Origin: Apibacter raozihei
Lineage (GTDB): Bacteria > Bacteroidota > Bacteroidia > Flavobacteriales > Weeksellaceae
Assembly: GCF_004014855.1 (NCBI RefSeq)
Contig: NZ_CP034930.1
Coordinates: 1,364,001 to 1,428,000, forward strand
Direction of reading: 5' to 3'
Length of the DNA stretch: 64,000 bases
Position 1 is the stretch's first letter. Every line of letters starts with the position of its first letter. The notes beneath the pieces were generated by a model. The model was not told the origin of the DNA and did no database searches. It worked only from the letters and a program-made list of their open reading frames with translations. The translations under genes and the position numbers were made by a program. Shown here piece after piece: positions 52,755 to 59,803 of the stretch.

Positions 52755-53194
52755 TTTGAATTAATTTTATTTAAAATTACAGAGCTCCAATCGGCTTCAT
52801 TCTTTATAATTAAAGTTTCGAAGTTATAAACAAGACCTTCTTTTTTTACTCCTTCGGAATCATCAATATGTAAATCTATATTGAACATAGGAGGGTATTT
52901 TGAGCATCTAAATGATTTATTTTTCATTATTTTATTATGCGTGTTTGCATTAATGACCTTATTTATTAATATACCATAAGAAAGAAAATTAAGTTTTATC
53001 AGCAATGGATTTCTATAAGAAGTTGTATAAATATAAACTTGATGTCCATCTTGGGATAATTTTCTAAATAATGATACAGTTCCTAAGCGTATTTTTTCAA
53101 AACCGATAATTTTTTGTACTATATTTTGTTTCTCAACAGGAAAAGTAATTTTTCCGTTAATCAGGGTGTCATCTAAATCAAAAGAAAGTATCAT
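52751..53194 (-). CDS. HAD-superfamily phosphatase-like protein
   Basis: A compact 147-residue HAD protein. Motif I is FDLDDTLING (nucleophile Asp6, acid Asp8). Motif II is IYTTSYR. Motif IV is IDLHIDDSEGV with paired Asp residues. There is a short or no cap, so large substrates such as nucleic-acid ends or proteins could reach the site. It overlaps both neighbours by 4 bp. In an RNA-repair setting it might trim terminal phosphates, but this is inference from context. Confidence 0.82.
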   Translation of the reverse strand: MILSFDLDDTLINGKITFPVEKQNIVQKIIGFEKIRLGTVSLFRKLSQDGHQVYIYTTSYRNPLLIKLNFLSYGILINKVINANTHNKIMKNKSFRCSKYPPMFNIDLHIDDSEGVKKEGLVYNFETLIIKNEADWSSVILNKINSK

Positions 53195-54018
53195 AATTTT
53201 ATATATAAAGATTCACTTATTCTTATTAGCACTGCTTGTTTTTCCATTTCCTGAAAAGTGTTTTGTAGATCTTCCACACTATTAAAAAAATGTCTGCTGA
53301 GGAAAGAATATTTTTCTGTTTTAATTAAAAAATTAAGAAAAGTCAAAGGTTCTAAATACTCTTCAGGAAATTCATTAATAGCTGTAATAATTTTCTCTTC
53401 AAATTCAGGTATTTCAAATTCCGGATTCAGTATTCGGGTAATTTTCCCTTTACCGACCGTACGATTTCCTTCTCTTATTAAAAAGGTTTTTCCCATAAAA
53501 AAATTTCCAAAATGAAAAACAGGATTAAGGGTAGTTAAAAACACTTTTATACTTTCACCGGGTTGACAGGTTTCTTTATTAATAAAGTTTTGTGGTGCAT
53601 CCCAATCTTTGTCATTATAAAAAAATTGTCCCCTGTAACCATTTGCTATTGCTGTTTTTCTACCCCCTTCTTCTTCTTTAAAATAATAGATCTCTGCTTC
53701 CAGGTCAGGAAGTTTATTATTTTTTTCAGAAAATAGAAACATCTTGTTTTTATACTTGATAGAAAGTTGCTTGAATCTTTTTTTCCATCCATTATCTAAA
53801 GCAAAAATAATTGCATCATGTACAAATTGAGGTGTAACCTGCCATAATTCACAGTCATCCGGAGGTAATGAATTTATATAAAGCCAAACATCATACCAGC
53901 CTATATCAACAGTTAAAGTATAAGAGGAATTATTTTTAACTTTAATTCGGATTACAGTTAAAAATTGCCATTCATAAGTTTCTTTTTTTACTGTTATATC
54001 TCTAAATTTTTTTTTCAT
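53191..54018 (-). CDS. Protein with stand-alone EF-Tu domain 3-like module
   Basis: A 275-residue protein with three parts. Residues 1-90 are a domain also seen in the upstream gene (KFRDITVKKETYEWQFLT). Residues about 103-197 match EF-Tu domain 3: AEIYYFKEEEGGRKT, NGYRGQFFYN, CQPGESIKVFLTTLNPV and FLIREGNRTVGKGKITRIL. EF-Tu has EVYILSKDEGGRHT, KGYRPQFYF and FAIREGGRTVGAG at these places. The last 75 residues are helical. No GTPase domain or domain 2 is present. In EF-Tu, domain 3 helps to hold aminoacyl-tRNA by its T-stem and to bind EF-Ts. The module here may bind tRNA or a translation factor (inference). It overlaps the upstream gene by 17 bp and the HAD gene by 4 bp. Confidence 0.85.
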   Translation of the reverse strand: MKKKFRDITVKKETYEWQFLTVIRIKVKNNSSYTLTVDIGWYDVWLYINSLPPDDCELWQVTPQFVHDAIIFALDNGWKKRFKQLSIKYKNKMFLFSEKNNKLPDLEAEIYYFKEEEGGRKTAIANGYRGQFFYNDKDWDAPQNFINKETCQPGESIKVFLTTLNPVFHFGNFFMGKTFLIREGNRTVGKGKITRILNPEFEIPEFEEKIITAINEFPEEYLEPLTFLNFLIKTEKYSFLSRHFFNSVEDLQNTFQEMEKQAVLIRISESLYIKL

Positions 54019-55316: not shown

Positions 55317-55964
55317 TTAATTGATAAATAAATCTTTCTCTGAAAAAATGCGAGTCGGATTACCTCTTTCCAGATTCAGGTGTTGATTCCATTTTTCCTG
55401 AATTTGCTCTTTAACTAAAGTAAGATTTAGTTCGGATAATTTTTCCAACAGGCGTTTTTTTGCCAGTTTCTTGTTTTCCAGTTGTGATCGGGAGTCCATA
55501 GCAAAAACGGAAACCAGAGTAGGGGAGTGAGTAGCACGCACCGCTGTATTCACTTTGTTTACATTTTGCCCTCCGGCACCGCGTGCACGAACAGCCTGAT
55601 ATTTAATATCGGAATCTGATATTTGAATTTCTGACAGGTTCGATACTTCATGAACACCTACAAACCAGTTTTTTCGTTTATGAAATTTTCGATACATGCT
55701 TTTACCTGTAAATTGAATAACTCCTTTCCAGTTTTTTAAAAATGGTTCTATTATTTTATCTTCTCCATATAATTCCAGAGTAACAGATTGTAATGTACCT
55801 GCTTGTTGTCCCAATGTCGATTCTAATACTTTATATTCTATTTGTTTTTCTTCCAGTTCTTTATAAAATAGTTTAATCAACCGTGCCACTACCCATTCAC
55901 ATTCTACAGGGCCTCTGCCGGAAGAGAATTGTACAATTTTTTTATATTTTTTTGATGAATTCAT
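55317..55964 (-). CDS. prfH: Peptide chain release factor homologue PrfH
   Basis: A 215-residue class I release-factor-like protein. The catalytic GGQ is at residues 131-133 in ARGAGGQNVNKVNTAVRATH, followed by a basic tail region (KKLAKKRLLEKLSELN). It is about 140 residues shorter than RF1/RF2 and lacks the N-terminal helical domain and the stop-codon reading loop. PrfH is known to be encoded with RtcB and to release peptides from ribosomes whose 16S rRNA decoding centre has been cut, so that RtcB can reseal the RNA. That link is established for other bacteria and inferred here. Its start overlaps the zinc-ribbon gene by 4 bp. Confidence 0.93.
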   Translation of the reverse strand: MNSSKKYKKIVQFSSGRGPVECEWVVARLIKLFYKELEEKQIEYKVLESTLGQQAGTLQSVTLELYGEDKIIEPFLKNWKGVIQFTGKSMYRKFHKRKNWFVGVHEVSNLSEIQISDSDIKYQAVRARGAGGQNVNKVNTAVRATHSPTLVSVFAMDSRSQLENKKLAKKRLLEKLSELNLTLVKEQIQEKWNQHLNLERGNPTRIFSEKDLFIN

Positions 55965-56551
55965 TTTTTTAATAAATAATCTATGGTTTTCACTATAATT
56001 TCACGGTTTTTAGAATCCTTGATAAATTGAGGTAAACGTTCAACCATGCTCATGCCATATTTCCAATGCCGTTCCCGTAATTCGGATTCCACATAGGCTT
56101 GTATTTCCAATAGATGTTCCCGGTTATAACCCCAAAATAAATTGCCTCGAATATCTGACTGATACCAGAGGGGGAATCCGAAAATCGGATCATGTTTAAT
56201 TCCCTGCACTTTCCCTGTGAGTATATATTTTTCAGTTCTTGGTTTTATAGTCAGACTTATGGAACATTCAGGACATGTAACTAAATATTTTTTAGGTTTT
56301 TCTTTTAATTTACCCCGTTCTTGATGTATTGTTTTTCCGCAATTCGGACAGTTTATATTTACTATTGCTTTATAGAAGATGAAATCTTCCGTTGTTCTCT
56401 GGTAAGAACAATGAGCACATGTAATAACAGAATTATTATAAGAATATTCATGGCTAACTGTAGCATTTTTTTTACAGGTAGGACATTCTACGGTAAATTT
56501 ACCGAAATGGGAATATCCTTTTTCTTTATATCTTTTTTGTTCTTTTTTCAT
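55961..56551 (-). CDS. Zinc-ribbon protein with four CxxC pairs
   Basis: A 196-residue protein. Four CxxC knuckles are visible: Cys23/26 (CPTC), Cys45/48 (CAHC), Cys68/71 (CPNC) and Cys93/96 (CPEC), enough for two zinc-ribbon units. The C-terminal 90 residues contain GIKHDPIFGFPLWYQSDIRG and YNREHLLEIQAYVESELRER, not a domain I can name. Zinc ribbons of this kind bind nucleic acid or ribosomes. The 4-bp overlap with prfH implies coupled translation and perhaps a joint function on the ribosome (inference). Confidence 0.85.
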   Translation of the reverse strand: MKKEQKRYKEKGYSHFGKFTVECPTCKKNATVSHEYSYNNSVITCAHCSYQRTTEDFIFYKAIVNINCPNCGKTIHQERGKLKEKPKKYLVTCPECSISLTIKPRTEKYILTGKVQGIKHDPIFGFPLWYQSDIRGNLFWGYNREHLLEIQAYVESELRERHWKYGMSMVERLPQFIKDSKNREIIVKTIDYLLKK

Positions 56552-56592: not shown

Positions 56593-57225
56593 TTATGAGA
56601 TTTCAATAAAGGGTTCATTAGAAGTAAGAACTGAAATATGTTTTGTAATTTTTTCAATGTCCCAGTTCCACCATTCTATTTCTAATAAATGGTTAATTTG
56701 ATTTTCAGTAAATCTCTTTTTAATCATAGTAGCTGGATTACCACCTACAATGGAGTAGGGGGGTACGTTTTTAGTAACTACAGCATATGCAGCAATTATG
56801 GCTCCGTCTCCAATGGTTATTCCAGGCATAATGGTAGCCTTATAACCAATCCAGACATCATTACCAATTACAGTATTCCCTTTGTTTGGGTAATCCTTGC
56901 CCTCCATACTTTTGCTCCAGTCTCCTCCAAAAATAGCGAAAGGATAAGTGGTAACAGATTCCATAAGATGGTTTGCTCCATTCATAATAAAGGTTACTCC
57001 AGAAGCAATAGCACAGAACTTACCGATAATTAACTTATCACCTATAAAATCAAAATGATATTTCACATTTTTCTCAAAATTCATGATATCTTCAAAATCA
57101 TCATAATATGTGTAATCTCCGATACTAATGTTTGGATTCTTAATAACATTCTTTAAAAAACATAAATTTGAATAATGTTTTAATGGAAATATTTTATTAC
57201 AGTCAGGAATATTTTTTAATTTCAT
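56593..57225 (-). CDS. Vat/CatB-type xenobiotic O-acetyltransferase
   Basis: A hexapeptide-repeat (left-handed beta-helix) acetyltransferase. I chose the ATG at 57225 ([13 protein letters not shown]), giving 210 residues like Vat proteins. An ATG at 57303 would add 26 lysine-rich residues overlapping the upstream gene. Motifs: [32 protein letters not shown] followed by the catalytic His (NHLMES), [36 protein letters not shown], and [11 protein letters not shown]. The family acetylates streptogramin A or chloramphenicol, both ribosome-targeting drugs. Similarity looks closer to Vat than to CatB, but the substrate is not settled. It lies 41 bp before the zinc-ribbon gene. Confidence 0.88.
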
Positions 57226-57277
57226 ACTAAATACTTTTAGTTTTTTCTTTATATCTTTTTTTTCATTAGTACCATTC

Positions 57278-58048
57278 TTAATTAAGGTGTTTTTCTTCTT
57301 CATAGCTTTCCCATATTTTGGATAAGGGAATATTTTGTGTAGGATCTGGATTTAGTTGATATTTTTCTTTTTCACCCAACCAGGATTTCCAGCGGTTAGA
57401 TCTGGATTTTATTTTTTGTAACCGAAGAGAGTTAATTTTGTCTTCATATATAATACGGTCTATCTCATCTCGTCTTTTTTCTAATTCCCAATCTTTTTTT
57501 CTTATTTTGGTAATAAAATAAGGACGTACTTTTAATACAAATCTCCAGGGTTCACTAAAAACATATTTTTCTTTCCATTTTCTAGATTGATAATCATAAT
57601 ATTGTATGAGGATAAATAATTTTTTTTCATCTTCTTTAAACGTTAGCTTCTCAAAATGATGCTTTTCCGGTTCTAACAAAATTTGCTGTATTTCAGCTAG
57701 TTTATACTTGTGCTTAGAAAGTCTTTTTTTTCTTTTTCTTTTTGCAAATTTTTTTTCATTACTATACCGGTACGTATTTATCTTGTTTAGTATGTTTTGA
57801 TAAAAATCAGATTTTTTATTTTCTCTTACATCCTCCCTTAACACAAATAAGCGTTCATATCCTTTCCGGATAGGAGTTTCTAACTCTTCAAATCCAAGAT
57901 TTTCTATAATCATTCTAATTTTGTCAGATTCTTTTCTAAGTTGAATTAAGCGTTTGTCTTTTCCCTTTATTATTCGTCTTTTTCTCCATCGAAAAGAAGG
58001 CAGCCTATAAGTTTCTATCCACTGCCTTTCTTCGTTTGTATATTTCAC
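57278..58048 (-). CDS. Very basic protein of unknown function next to rtcB
   Basis: A 256-residue protein unusually rich in Lys and Arg, with clusters such as [15 protein letters not shown] near the N-terminus and [18 protein letters not shown] in the middle. Tyr and Trp are also frequent ([21 protein letters not shown]). It is soluble, with predicted helices, and shows no domain I recognise. The charge strongly suggests RNA or ribosome binding. It starts 8 bp after the rtcB stop. Its end overlaps an upstream alternative start of the acetyltransferase gene. Confidence 0.8.
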
Positions 58049-58056
58049 TTACTCTC

Positions 58057-59454
58057 TTATTTTTTATCCATCCGTACCAACCTCGGCATAAAGGTTCCCA
58101 AGATATCTACCAATTCCGTTTGCGCATTCATTACTTCATTAATATTCTTATAAGCCATAGGGGCTTCTTCTTTGCTTCCACCGATAAGTTCCACCTTATG
58201 AAGTTTCAGTTCTTTCTTAATTTCAGAAGCTGAAATAGAGTTGGATGCCTTATGTCTTGAAAGCAGCCTTCCGGCACCGTGTGAAGCAGAATTTAGAGAT
58301 TCTTCGTTTCCTCGTCCTCGCACAATAAATCCTTTAGAACTCATCGAACCAGGAATAAAGCCTAGTTGCCCTTCGGCTGCGGGAGTTGCTCCTTTTCGGT
58401 GAACGATTACTTCTTTTCCCTTGTGTTCTTCTTTCCAGGCAAAGTTGTGATGATTTTCAATGCGAGCTACTAATCTACCGCCAGTTATCTTCATTAGTCT
58501 TCTATGAATATCGGAATGACAGGCAGAAGCATATTCTCCTGCAAGGTTCATAGCTATCCAGTATTCTGTTCCTAAATGAGAGTTAAGATCCAGCCAGGCC
58601 AGATGTTGTGCTTCTTTAGGTAGCGGACATTGTTCAATAGCTACCCGGGTATAATATTGTGCAATTTCTGCTCCTAATGCCCGTGAACCGCTGTGAGATA
58701 ATATTCCGGTATACTTGCCTTTAGGTAAATTAAACTCATTTTTCTCATCCGTTATTTCTACTTCTCCAAATTCCACAAAGTGATTTCCTCCTCCCGAAGT
58801 ACCCATTTGTTTGATGGCTTTGGCTTTTAAACGTCTTAAAATCGGAATCATAGAGAAAGCTTCATTTTCAAAAACCAAATATTCTATATGGGTTTTATGA
58901 GTTTCATACATTCCAAACTTTGTATTTTCTTGTAAAGCATTAAGATATTTATCCTTGCTTCCTTCCAAATAAGAAACTGGTATATCTAATATGCTCAGAC
59001 ACATTCTGCACCCTATATCCACACCTACCCCGTAAGGGATAATAGCATTTTCAGTAGCCAGAACTCCACCAATAGGCAAACCATAGCCTACATGTCCGTC
59101 AGGCATTAATGCTCCCTGAACAGATACCGGAAGTTTTAAAGCGGTATATAACTGCTTTATTGCTTCTTCTGCAATTTGCTCTTCACCAAAAATGGTGAAT
59201 GGGGCCCTTTGACTTTCCAGATTTCTTTTTTCTACTTTGGTTAATTGCAGAAATTCTTCTGCAATTTGTCCCAGCATTAAGTTTTCTTTGTATTCTTCCG
59301 GTTTTTTTTGAATATCTTTAAGAATACTTAAGACGTATGCTTTATTTCTTTTATCGAAGTTTTTCTGCATTACTTCGATCGCTGTATTTATTATTTTTGT
59401 ATTGGGATATCCGATTTTTAGGATATCTTTTCCTTTTAATTTTAACTTGCCCAT
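58057..59454 (-). CDS. rtcB: RNA-splicing ligase RtcB
   Basis: A 465-residue GTP-dependent RNA ligase joining 2',3'-cyclic phosphate or 3'-phosphate ends to 5'-OH ends. Signature regions: LMPDGHVGYGLPIGGVLA, YGVGVDIGCRM with metal-ligand Cys149, GGGNHFVEFG (His225), LSHSGSRALGAE (His254), ENHHNFAW (residues 333-340), and the guanylylated histidine His392 in NSASHGAGRLLSRHK. All metal and GMP-binding residues appear present. It heads the operon and lies downstream of a structured leader. Physical linkage to prfH makes 16S rRNA repair its most likely job; tRNA repair is the alternative. Confidence 0.96.
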   Translation of the reverse strand: MGKLKLKGKDILKIGYPNTKIINTAIEVMQKNFDKRNKAYVLSILKDIQKKPEEYKENLMLGQIAEEFLQLTKVEKRNLESQRAPFTIFGEEQIAEEAIKQLYTALKLPVSVQGALMPDGHVGYGLPIGGVLATENAIIPYGVGVDIGCRMCLSILDIPVSYLEGSKDKYLNALQENTKFGMYETHKTHIEYLVFENEAFSMIPILRRLKAKAIKQMGTSGGGNHFVEFGEVEITDEKNEFNLPKGKYTGILSHSGSRALGAEIAQYYTRVAIEQCPLPKEAQHLAWLDLNSHLGTEYWIAMNLAGEYASACHSDIHRRLMKITGGRLVARIENHHNFAWKEEHKGKEVIVHRKGATPAAEGQLGFIPGSMSSKGFIVRGRGNEESLNSASHGAGRLLSRHKASNSISASEIKKELKLHKVELIGGSKEEAPMAYKNINEVMNAQTELVDILGTFMPRLVRMDKK

Positions 59455-59591: not shown

Positions 59592-59626
59592 AGAAAAATA
59601 AAACCCGAAACATTTGCTTCGGGTTT
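59592..59626 (-). terminator. Intrinsic terminator in the rtcB leader
   Basis: Minus strand AAACCCGAA (59626-59618) pairs with TTCGGGTTT (59609-59601), an 8-nt loop, followed by TATTTTT. It lies 147 bp upstream of the rtcB start codon, so it would stop transcription before rtcB unless an alternative fold wins. It also could serve the M48 protease gene upstream. Confidence 0.8.
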
Positions 59627-59629
59627 ACT

Positions 59630-59764
59630 TTAAACATATTGTTTATTTATTTTGAAGAAAATACCCGAAGCTATGATTTTCCACTGGTAGGAAAACCGTT
59701 CATTATTTGTAGATGTGATACATTGAACATTTTGCTTCGTTATTTAAAAAGGTTATACTTATTT
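59630..59764 (-). ncRNA. Candidate structured leader (attenuator or riboswitch-like) of the rtcB operon
   Basis: On the minus strand the leader can fold as a three-way junction. P1 is CGAAGC (59739-59734) with GCTTCG (59671-59666). P2 is TGTTCA (59729-59724) with TGAACG (59702-59697). P3 is TTTTCC (59695-59690) with GGAAAA (59682-59677), loop TACCAGT. The 3' strand of P1 extends to GCTTCGGGT and can instead pair perfectly over 9 bp with ACCCGAAGC (59624-59616), the 5' arm of the following terminator. P1, antiterminator and terminator are thus mutually exclusive, the classic attenuation layout. It may alternatively be an independent small RNA. I know no named class with this fold. Confidence 0.55.
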
Positions 59765-59770
59765 GAACTG

Positions 59771-59803
59771 CAAATTTATAAAATAAATTATTAAATATCC
59801 AAA
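59771..59803 (-). promoter_or_regulatory. Consensus Bacteroidota promoter for the rtcB leader RNA
   Basis: On the minus strand, TAAATTTGC (59778-59770) matches TAnnTTTGC exactly, and TTTG at 59803-59800 is 21 bp upstream. Transcription would begin near 59764, about 25 nt before P1 of the structured leader and about 310 nt before the rtcB ATG. Confidence 0.6.

Follow-up and report, generated by a model that had tools for sequence, protein, structure and literature searches.

A putative ribosome-mediated transcription attenuator upstream of rtcB-prfH operons in Apibacter raozihei and related bacteria

We found that the rtcB gene of Apibacter raozihei is preceded by an RNA leader that is probably a transcription attenuator of the ribosome-mediated (trp) type, controlling an RtcB-PrfH operon for ribosome rescue and repair. 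RtcB-PrfH acts in the rescue and religation of cleaved ribosomes, and no description of the cue that tells cells when to make this pair was found in the portions of the literature available to us.

The leader and its operon

The window is the whole stretch of DNA analyzed here (64,000 nucleotides of contig NZ_CP034930.1). The leader and the operon behind it lie on the minus strand and include the following features.

59771..59803, minus strand: putative promoter of the Bacteroidota type, TTTG (59803-59800) and TAAATTTG (TANNTTTG; 59778-59771), assigned from sequence
59734..59740, minus strand: arm A, ACGAAGC (6-bp pairing part CGAAGC, 59739-59734), directly 5' of the leader ATG; pairs with arm B to form P1
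59671..59730, minus strand: leader reading frame of 19 codons plus TAG, MFNVSHLQIMNGFPTSGKS, with its ATG at 59730
59675..59697, minus strand: P3 hairpin, GGTTTTCC/GGAAAATC, within the reading frame and inside P1
59663..59671, minus strand: arm B, GCTTCGGGT; partner of A (off state) or of C (antiterminator)
59616..59624, minus strand: arm C, ACCCGAAGC; 5' arm of the terminator, or partner of B
59593..59626, minus strand: intrinsic terminator (C:D) from the terminator scan, with 11 pairs in its hairpin (59626-59601) and a T-rich tract behind it
58057..59454, minus strand: rtcB, RNA ligase, the first gene after the leader, starting at 59454 (Pfam PF01139, 279 bits)
57278..58048, minus strand: basic protein without a family; relatives occur in the same operon elsewhere
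56593..57303, minus strand: Vat-like streptogramin A O-acetyltransferase (NF000311, 295.3 bits, just below the cut-off of 300)
55961..56551, minus strand: zinc-ribbon-like protein with weak zinc-ribbon matches; relatives adjoin rtcB/prfH in some loci
55317..55964, minus strand: prfH, release factor H (TIGR03072, 207.5 bits, cut-off 166.65)

The minus-strand promoter and the pairings A:B, B:C, and C:D were found as claimed in the original prediction, with helices of 6 bp for A:B and 9 bp for B:C and with the C:D terminator also present. The TTTG/TANNTTTG assignment follows the Bacteroidota promoter consensus, and 60 of the 87 distinct leaders have an exact TANNTTTG at most 90 nt upstream, compared with a background of 0.064 per 90 nt. 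Placed between promoter and terminator, the leader frame begins just past arm A and finishes at arm B. The fold of the 179-nt leader RNA has a z-score of -4.43 (0/200 shuffles equally stable), and a terminator scan of both strands gave two sites, one of them the leader terminator, where shuffled sequences gave a mean of 0.1. Helices A:B and B:C with a common B and at least the observed lengths occurred in none of 1,000 dinucleotide shuffles. Rfam gave no match at the gathering score in the window, the leader having sub-threshold matches only (E 0.19 to 9.7), and a plasmid search using the leader DNA gave no match.

The operon reads in the order rtcB, basic protein, Vat-like, zinc-ribbon-like, prfH, and a metallophosphatase-like protein. 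The window RtcB matches the NCBIfam models for the E. coli-type PrfH-linked RtcB below their cut-off (TIGR03073, 129.9 versus 271.8 bits). Of 80 rtcB loci taken from named genomes, 71 contain prfH and 58 contain a TPR gene; the window yielded no TPR gene. This gene content suggests that the signal is damage to, or a block of, the ribosome, and the position of the Vat-like gene inside the rtcB-prfH string indicates that the leader may also control a kind of gene associated with ribosome-targeting drugs. Two proteins at such loci are recorded here as separate observations. One, at 53191-54018 near the operon, has a stretch like domain 3 of EF-Tu; the other, in a Capnocytophaga rtcB locus (L045:4409-4975), presumably resembles RNA 2'-phosphotransferase, another RNA-repair enzyme.

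Distribution among rtcB loci and genomes

Searched with the leader DNA, two of the eight further genomes of the genus contain full-length relatives, and other genera contain partial ones. Regular expressions applied to the 80 rtcB loci found leaders in Chryseobacterium, Kaistella, Capnocytophaga, Flavobacterium, Myroides, Tenacibaculum, Polaribacter, Aquimarina, and Sphingobacterium. Extraction gave 71 candidates, of which 42 were aligned without reference to structure (alignment A3); this alignment gave covariance model R1, whose training leaders had been selected with a frame requirement that somewhat biases frame counts. The covariance search of related rtcB leaders proposed as a check was positive: R1 matched above 60 bits at 69 of the 80 loci, although 34 of these 69 belong to the training set. 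Such matches were found in 67 of 71 loci with prfH versus two of nine without it. Model matches under about 51 bits were not counted, except for divergent leaders confirmed by eye or by scan.

The loci without a strong R1 match are of several kinds. A scan for the layout that disregards sequence found it with other letters at L059, L060, L061, and L118, and it was seen by eye at L058 and L062; at L114, B and C appear by eye to be separated by an insert. L065, L111, and L117, with upstream stretches of only 142, 635, and 1089 nt, gave no leader, and neither did L070, where a lone scan match with a 39-aa frame was not counted. The sequence-free scan was positive in 52/80 upstream regions, 0/80 antisense regions, and 1/160 downstream strands, and it overlooks many leaders that the covariance model finds.

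At the genome level, R1 matched at E 0.01 or better in 231 of 316 genomes of the family, weak matches included. Model R2, trained on leaders of this genome and its relatives and used with stricter filters, matched above 60 bits in 26 of 395 genomes drawn from the phylum. An RtcB with at least 58% identity is present in 27 of these 395 genomes, and 26 of the 27 (the window's own included) have the leader on the same strand at most 1 kb upstream; the remaining one (G646) has a divergent leader (L216, 48.2 bits). The remaining 368 genomes lack any leader match above 60 bits. A second RtcB, with 49-51% identity, occurs in nine of the 27 genomes, and no R2 match is listed at any of the nine. Among 29 hand-picked genomes, six have an RtcB with at least 50% identity and five of these six have a strong leader; in three others of this set, a strong leader occurs although no RtcB reaches this identity. 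It stands before prfH in G294 and before a TPR gene in G242, and the third genome is G001. At the locus level, a leader lies directly before prfH in a genome without an rtcB match (L156) and before a TPR gene at L157.

This distribution bears on the idea that termination chiefly serves to make an independent small RNA, with read-through into rtcB being incidental. Its own promoter box and strong terminator would suit such an RNA. However, its tie to rtcB, prfH, and TPR genes (26/27 versus 0/368 genomes) and the covariation of the antiterminator described below make this very improbable.

Several individual loci were also observed. Second leader-like places were found in Sediminicola (L063:7843-7990, before a TPR gene, 47.2 bits) and in Tenacibaculum (L086:3664-3802, divergent, with an LRG peptide, 37.7 bits). 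Within the genus of the window, rtcB decays and the leader stays (L002:1290-1390; L003). G001 has no RtcB match and by eye retains only a start remnant of rtcB, and the rtcB of G003 has one in-frame TGA.

Covariation and folding of the alternative helices

The geometry of transcription attenuation claimed ahead of rtcB was borne out by compensatory changes in the antiterminator. Among the 42 leaders of A3, 90.9% of the B:C cells are paired, and 43 cells have changes on both sides (shuffled mean 12.6; reached in 0/500 shuffles). The covariation score of B:C is 0.262 versus 0.129 for shuffled alignments (0/500), and helices slid along the alignment reach at most 0.087. The number of B:C pairs with double changes (five) is not outstanding, since 42/500 shuffles reach it. 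For P1 and terminator together, 94.8% of cells are paired, six pairs and 46 cells changed on both sides, and the score is 0.203 versus 0.107 shuffled (slid helices at most 0.069); relatedness inflates covariation scores of this kind, and the clades are few. Further pair types are at shuffle level for both (reached in 211/500 shuffles for P1 and terminator and 337/500 for B:C). The changes follow clades: arm B reads CTTCG followed by -GG, -GAC, or -GC, and arm C varies to match.

A3 was cut at the P1 arm and row L066 remains out of register; in this alignment, P1 alone has double changes in two of seven pairs. In 23 Chryseobacterium-type leaders, a hairpin at the P3 site was predicted de novo with compensatory changes and P1 was not predicted, probably because the alignment shifts the P1 arm. 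By eye, P1 is not evident in the divergent leaders L059, L062, L118, and L235. The alternative 1:2, 2:3, and 3:4 helices are all present, with 2:3 and 3:4 well supported and 1:2 (P1) resting on two varying pairs of seven. The original prediction had described three mutually exclusive helices; the helices exist, but P1 and the terminator are able to coexist, so that only the antiterminator excludes the others. It had also described a three-way junction. P2 (GTTCA/TGAAC) is not kept, by eye, in two same-genus leaders, which leaves a conserved junction unsupported, unlike the P3 hairpin inside P1.

Folding calculations gave a consistent ordering of states. As long as D is missing, B:C is favored, with a mean gain of 6.4 kcal/mol; once D is present, the off state has the advantage, with a mean of 6.0 kcal/mol, and is the better state in 83 of 89 leaders. 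P1 is weak, contributing a mean of 3.0 kcal/mol. With a mask over the first codons, B:C remains in 88/88 leaders, and a mask over B abolishes B:C by construction. As modeled, these energetics match the requirements of a ribosome-mediated attenuator. At equilibrium without a ribosome, however, B:C also beats P1 in 84 of 88 leaders.

A ligand riboswitch, in which P1 and the inner helices would form an aptamer and a small molecule would set the terminator, shares the terminator/antiterminator geometry and would account for a hairpin enclosed by P1. Yet, the interior of P1 varies in sequence and length, and what persists there is an open frame and a hairpin whose own sequence varies; the invariant columns of A3 fall within the pairing arms, at the start codon, and in the T tract. 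The alignment thus has no conserved aptamer core, in line with the lack of an Rfam match at the gathering score. The ligand trigger raised in the original prediction is therefore very unlikely, and the reading frame between arms A and B makes translation, not a ligand, the likely input.

The leader reading frame and its peptide

A set of 89 model matches from 92 sources (A5; L065, L070, L111, L114, L117, and L118 are not sources) contains 87 distinct leaders. The start codon, just past arm A, is ATG in 86 of them and GTG in one (L097, at the same place). From ATG to arm B the distance is 54, 57, 60, or 63 nt, a multiple of three, in 81 of 86 leaders. A stop codon ahead of B occurs in frame 0 in only three of 86 leaders, compared with 69 in frame 1 and 36 in frame 2; the three are the window and two same-genus leaders, whose TAG abuts B. 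These counts come from the 86 or 87 leaders, as a larger set of 114 frames is biased for open-frame counts by its own frame requirement.

Among 68 near-neighbor pairs, substitutions at codon positions 1, 2, and 3 numbered 74, 91, and 92, and synonymous changes made up 52/213 in frame versus 48/215 and 50/210 in the shifted frames. Substitutions are thus spread evenly over codon positions, and the peptide is not visibly selected. The leaders thus maintain an open frame without conserving the peptide sequence.

Two alternatives would give the peptide or its codons a specific role. The first is attenuation by an amino acid or a specific tRNA, with Phe, Ser, or Leu control codons. Of the 114 frames, 100 encode Phe at codon 2 and 71 encode Ser at codon 8, and the peptides are richest in Leu, Ser, and Phe, so a specific codon, above all the Phe at codon 2, could matter. 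Nevertheless, no conserved run of control codons was seen in the leader frames, where only single positions are enriched; 14/114 frames have Leu, Thr, Arg, Tyr, or another residue in place of the Phe; substitutions are unbiased by codon position; and the genes behind the leader are not biosynthetic. We consider this alternative unlikely. The second is an arrest peptide, drug-dependent or intrinsic, whose residues stall the ribosome. The Vat-like gene within the operon would fit it, and the peptides often read LRG, LRD, or LRA at arm B. Against it, amino-acid-altering changes are as frequent as in the shifted frames, and CTTCG is read in another frame in 5/86 leaders, so that the LR may be a mere consequence of the RNA pairing. 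An arrest peptide seems about equally improbable.

Proposed mechanism of attenuation

From the sequences, we infer leader translation, terminator function, read-through, and the trigger. For the ribosome-mediated attenuator, the short leader frame would be translated during its own transcription. Ribosomes that run through the frame would cover B when C and D emerge, C:D would pair, and transcription would stop. A ribosome that starts and stalls early would cover A and leave B free, in which case B:C would pair and the operon would be read. Without initiation on the leader frame, P1 (A:B) may be the first helix to form and may sequester B long enough for the terminator to prevail; as B:C wins without a ribosome at equilibrium, the outcome of this untranslated state depends on kinetics and may be on rather than off. 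With a peptide that is free to change, the switch would read the success of elongation and not one amino acid, and its likely trigger would be damaged or drug-blocked ribosomes. If the leader measures completed translation, ribosome damage would be linked straight to repair, and such a leader could be used as a simple means of reporting ribosome damage or drug block.

Leads beyond the matched leaders

In E. coli (L218:1150-1400) and Proteus (L220:600-905), rtcB2-prfH is preceded by a 15-codon frame with a strong SD (MTNPLSMTLCRPFQD in E. coli, with its strong SD, and MTTTNMNTLCGQSQK in Proteus) and flanks in the A, B, C layout. The start is preceded by CTGCAA, the frame has TTTGCAG or TTTGCGG close to its end, and GTCTGC or GTCCGC lies downstream; the change from GCAGAC:GTCTGC to GCGGAC:GTCCGC is compensatory. 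No intrinsic terminator was seen before rtcB2-prfH of E. coli or, by eye, of Proteus, so the output step would differ. Among eight rtcB-prfH loci, the layout was found in E. coli (three records), Proteus (with one G-U pair), and Aureibacter (by eye); Klebsiella has a short frame without it, and Skermanella and Shinella have no frame with an SD by the rule used.

A shuffle test of the layout gave 0/1000 for E. coli. Under the strict rule (A and C share B, no G-U), Proteus, Aureibacter, L237, Flexithrix, and L235 score 0; Flexithrix and L235 nonetheless have B:C runs of 9 and 10. For RtcB genes in other families of the phylum, outside Flavobacteriales, the layout was seen by eye in two of 15 upstream regions of about 620 nt (L235 and L242, of one genus), and upstream of second RtcB genes in none of five regions (by eye). 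We regard the divergent Bacteroidota Flexithrix (L118) and L235/L242, together with E. coli and Proteus, as leads, in which the A-B-C layout or parts of it occur in unrelated sequence. It is thus conceivable, at slightly less than an even chance, that a translation sensor independent of the peptide controls RtcB-PrfH operons beyond a single phylum; its leader would directly signal the failure of ribosomes to complete a short frame, and damage would turn on its own repair.

A different type of RNA was observed at other loci. Repeated YrlA-like (Y RNA-like) RNAs lie upstream of rtcB in L232, L234, L236, and weakly L228, the last being the second rtcB of a Flavobacteriales genome; these matches are below the Rfam gathering score (best 40.1 versus 69 bits, E 2.9e-6). 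No tRNA genes were found in the nine loci scanned.

Comparison with known systems

The attenuators of trp and his operons have their own promoter, a short reading frame, alternative hairpins, and an intrinsic terminator. The window leader shares all four. It differs from them in lacking a run of control codons, in its unconserved peptide, and in standing before rescue and repair genes rather than genes for amino-acid biosynthesis.

RtcR and sigma54 control rtcBA, which encodes an RNA ligase of the RtcB family. A ligase of this family is under control in both cases; here the control would lie in an RNA leader. RtcR and sigma54 had both been stated to be absent: RtcR was indeed not found in the genome (the E. 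coli control was positive), but sigma54 is present (G000:C1:2268354-2268830, 172 bits).

The RtcB2-PrfH module gives E. coli protection against colicin E3, which cleaves 16S rRNA (PMC9223846). It is the same gene pair as in the window and has its own short frame upstream. In the main texts of the sources, the word "leader" is absent from PMC9223846, and both "leader" and "attenuat" are absent from the paper on the PrfH hypothesis (PMC1586002). A transcriptome study of Flavobacterium psychrophilum reported leader-peptide attenuation before amino-acid operons and 64 structured 5' regions (PMC9723704), and its main text does not mention rtcB. Among the open-licence literature matches listed, none describes this leader.

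The closest functional precedent is PA5471.1-armZ of Pseudomonas aeruginosa, as described in the parts of two sources consulted (PMC12057347, PMC13041342). There, a short leader frame is combined with alternative hairpins and a terminator, and drugs that target the ribosome make it stall, which opens the gene; a 2025 review regards this attenuation as still in need of confirmation (PMC12057347/PMC13041342). ArmZ is described as an RtcB-like RNA ligase that acts as an anti-repressor of MexZ (PMC12057347, PMC13041342). Compared by description, both systems have a short frame, alternative hairpins, and a terminator before an RtcB-like gene. PA5471.1-armZ differs in belonging to another phylum and in its MexZ anti-repressor product, whereas rtcB in the window is linked to prfH. 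The leader described here is best read as an attenuator that senses translation, with a close functional precedent in PA5471.1-armZ.
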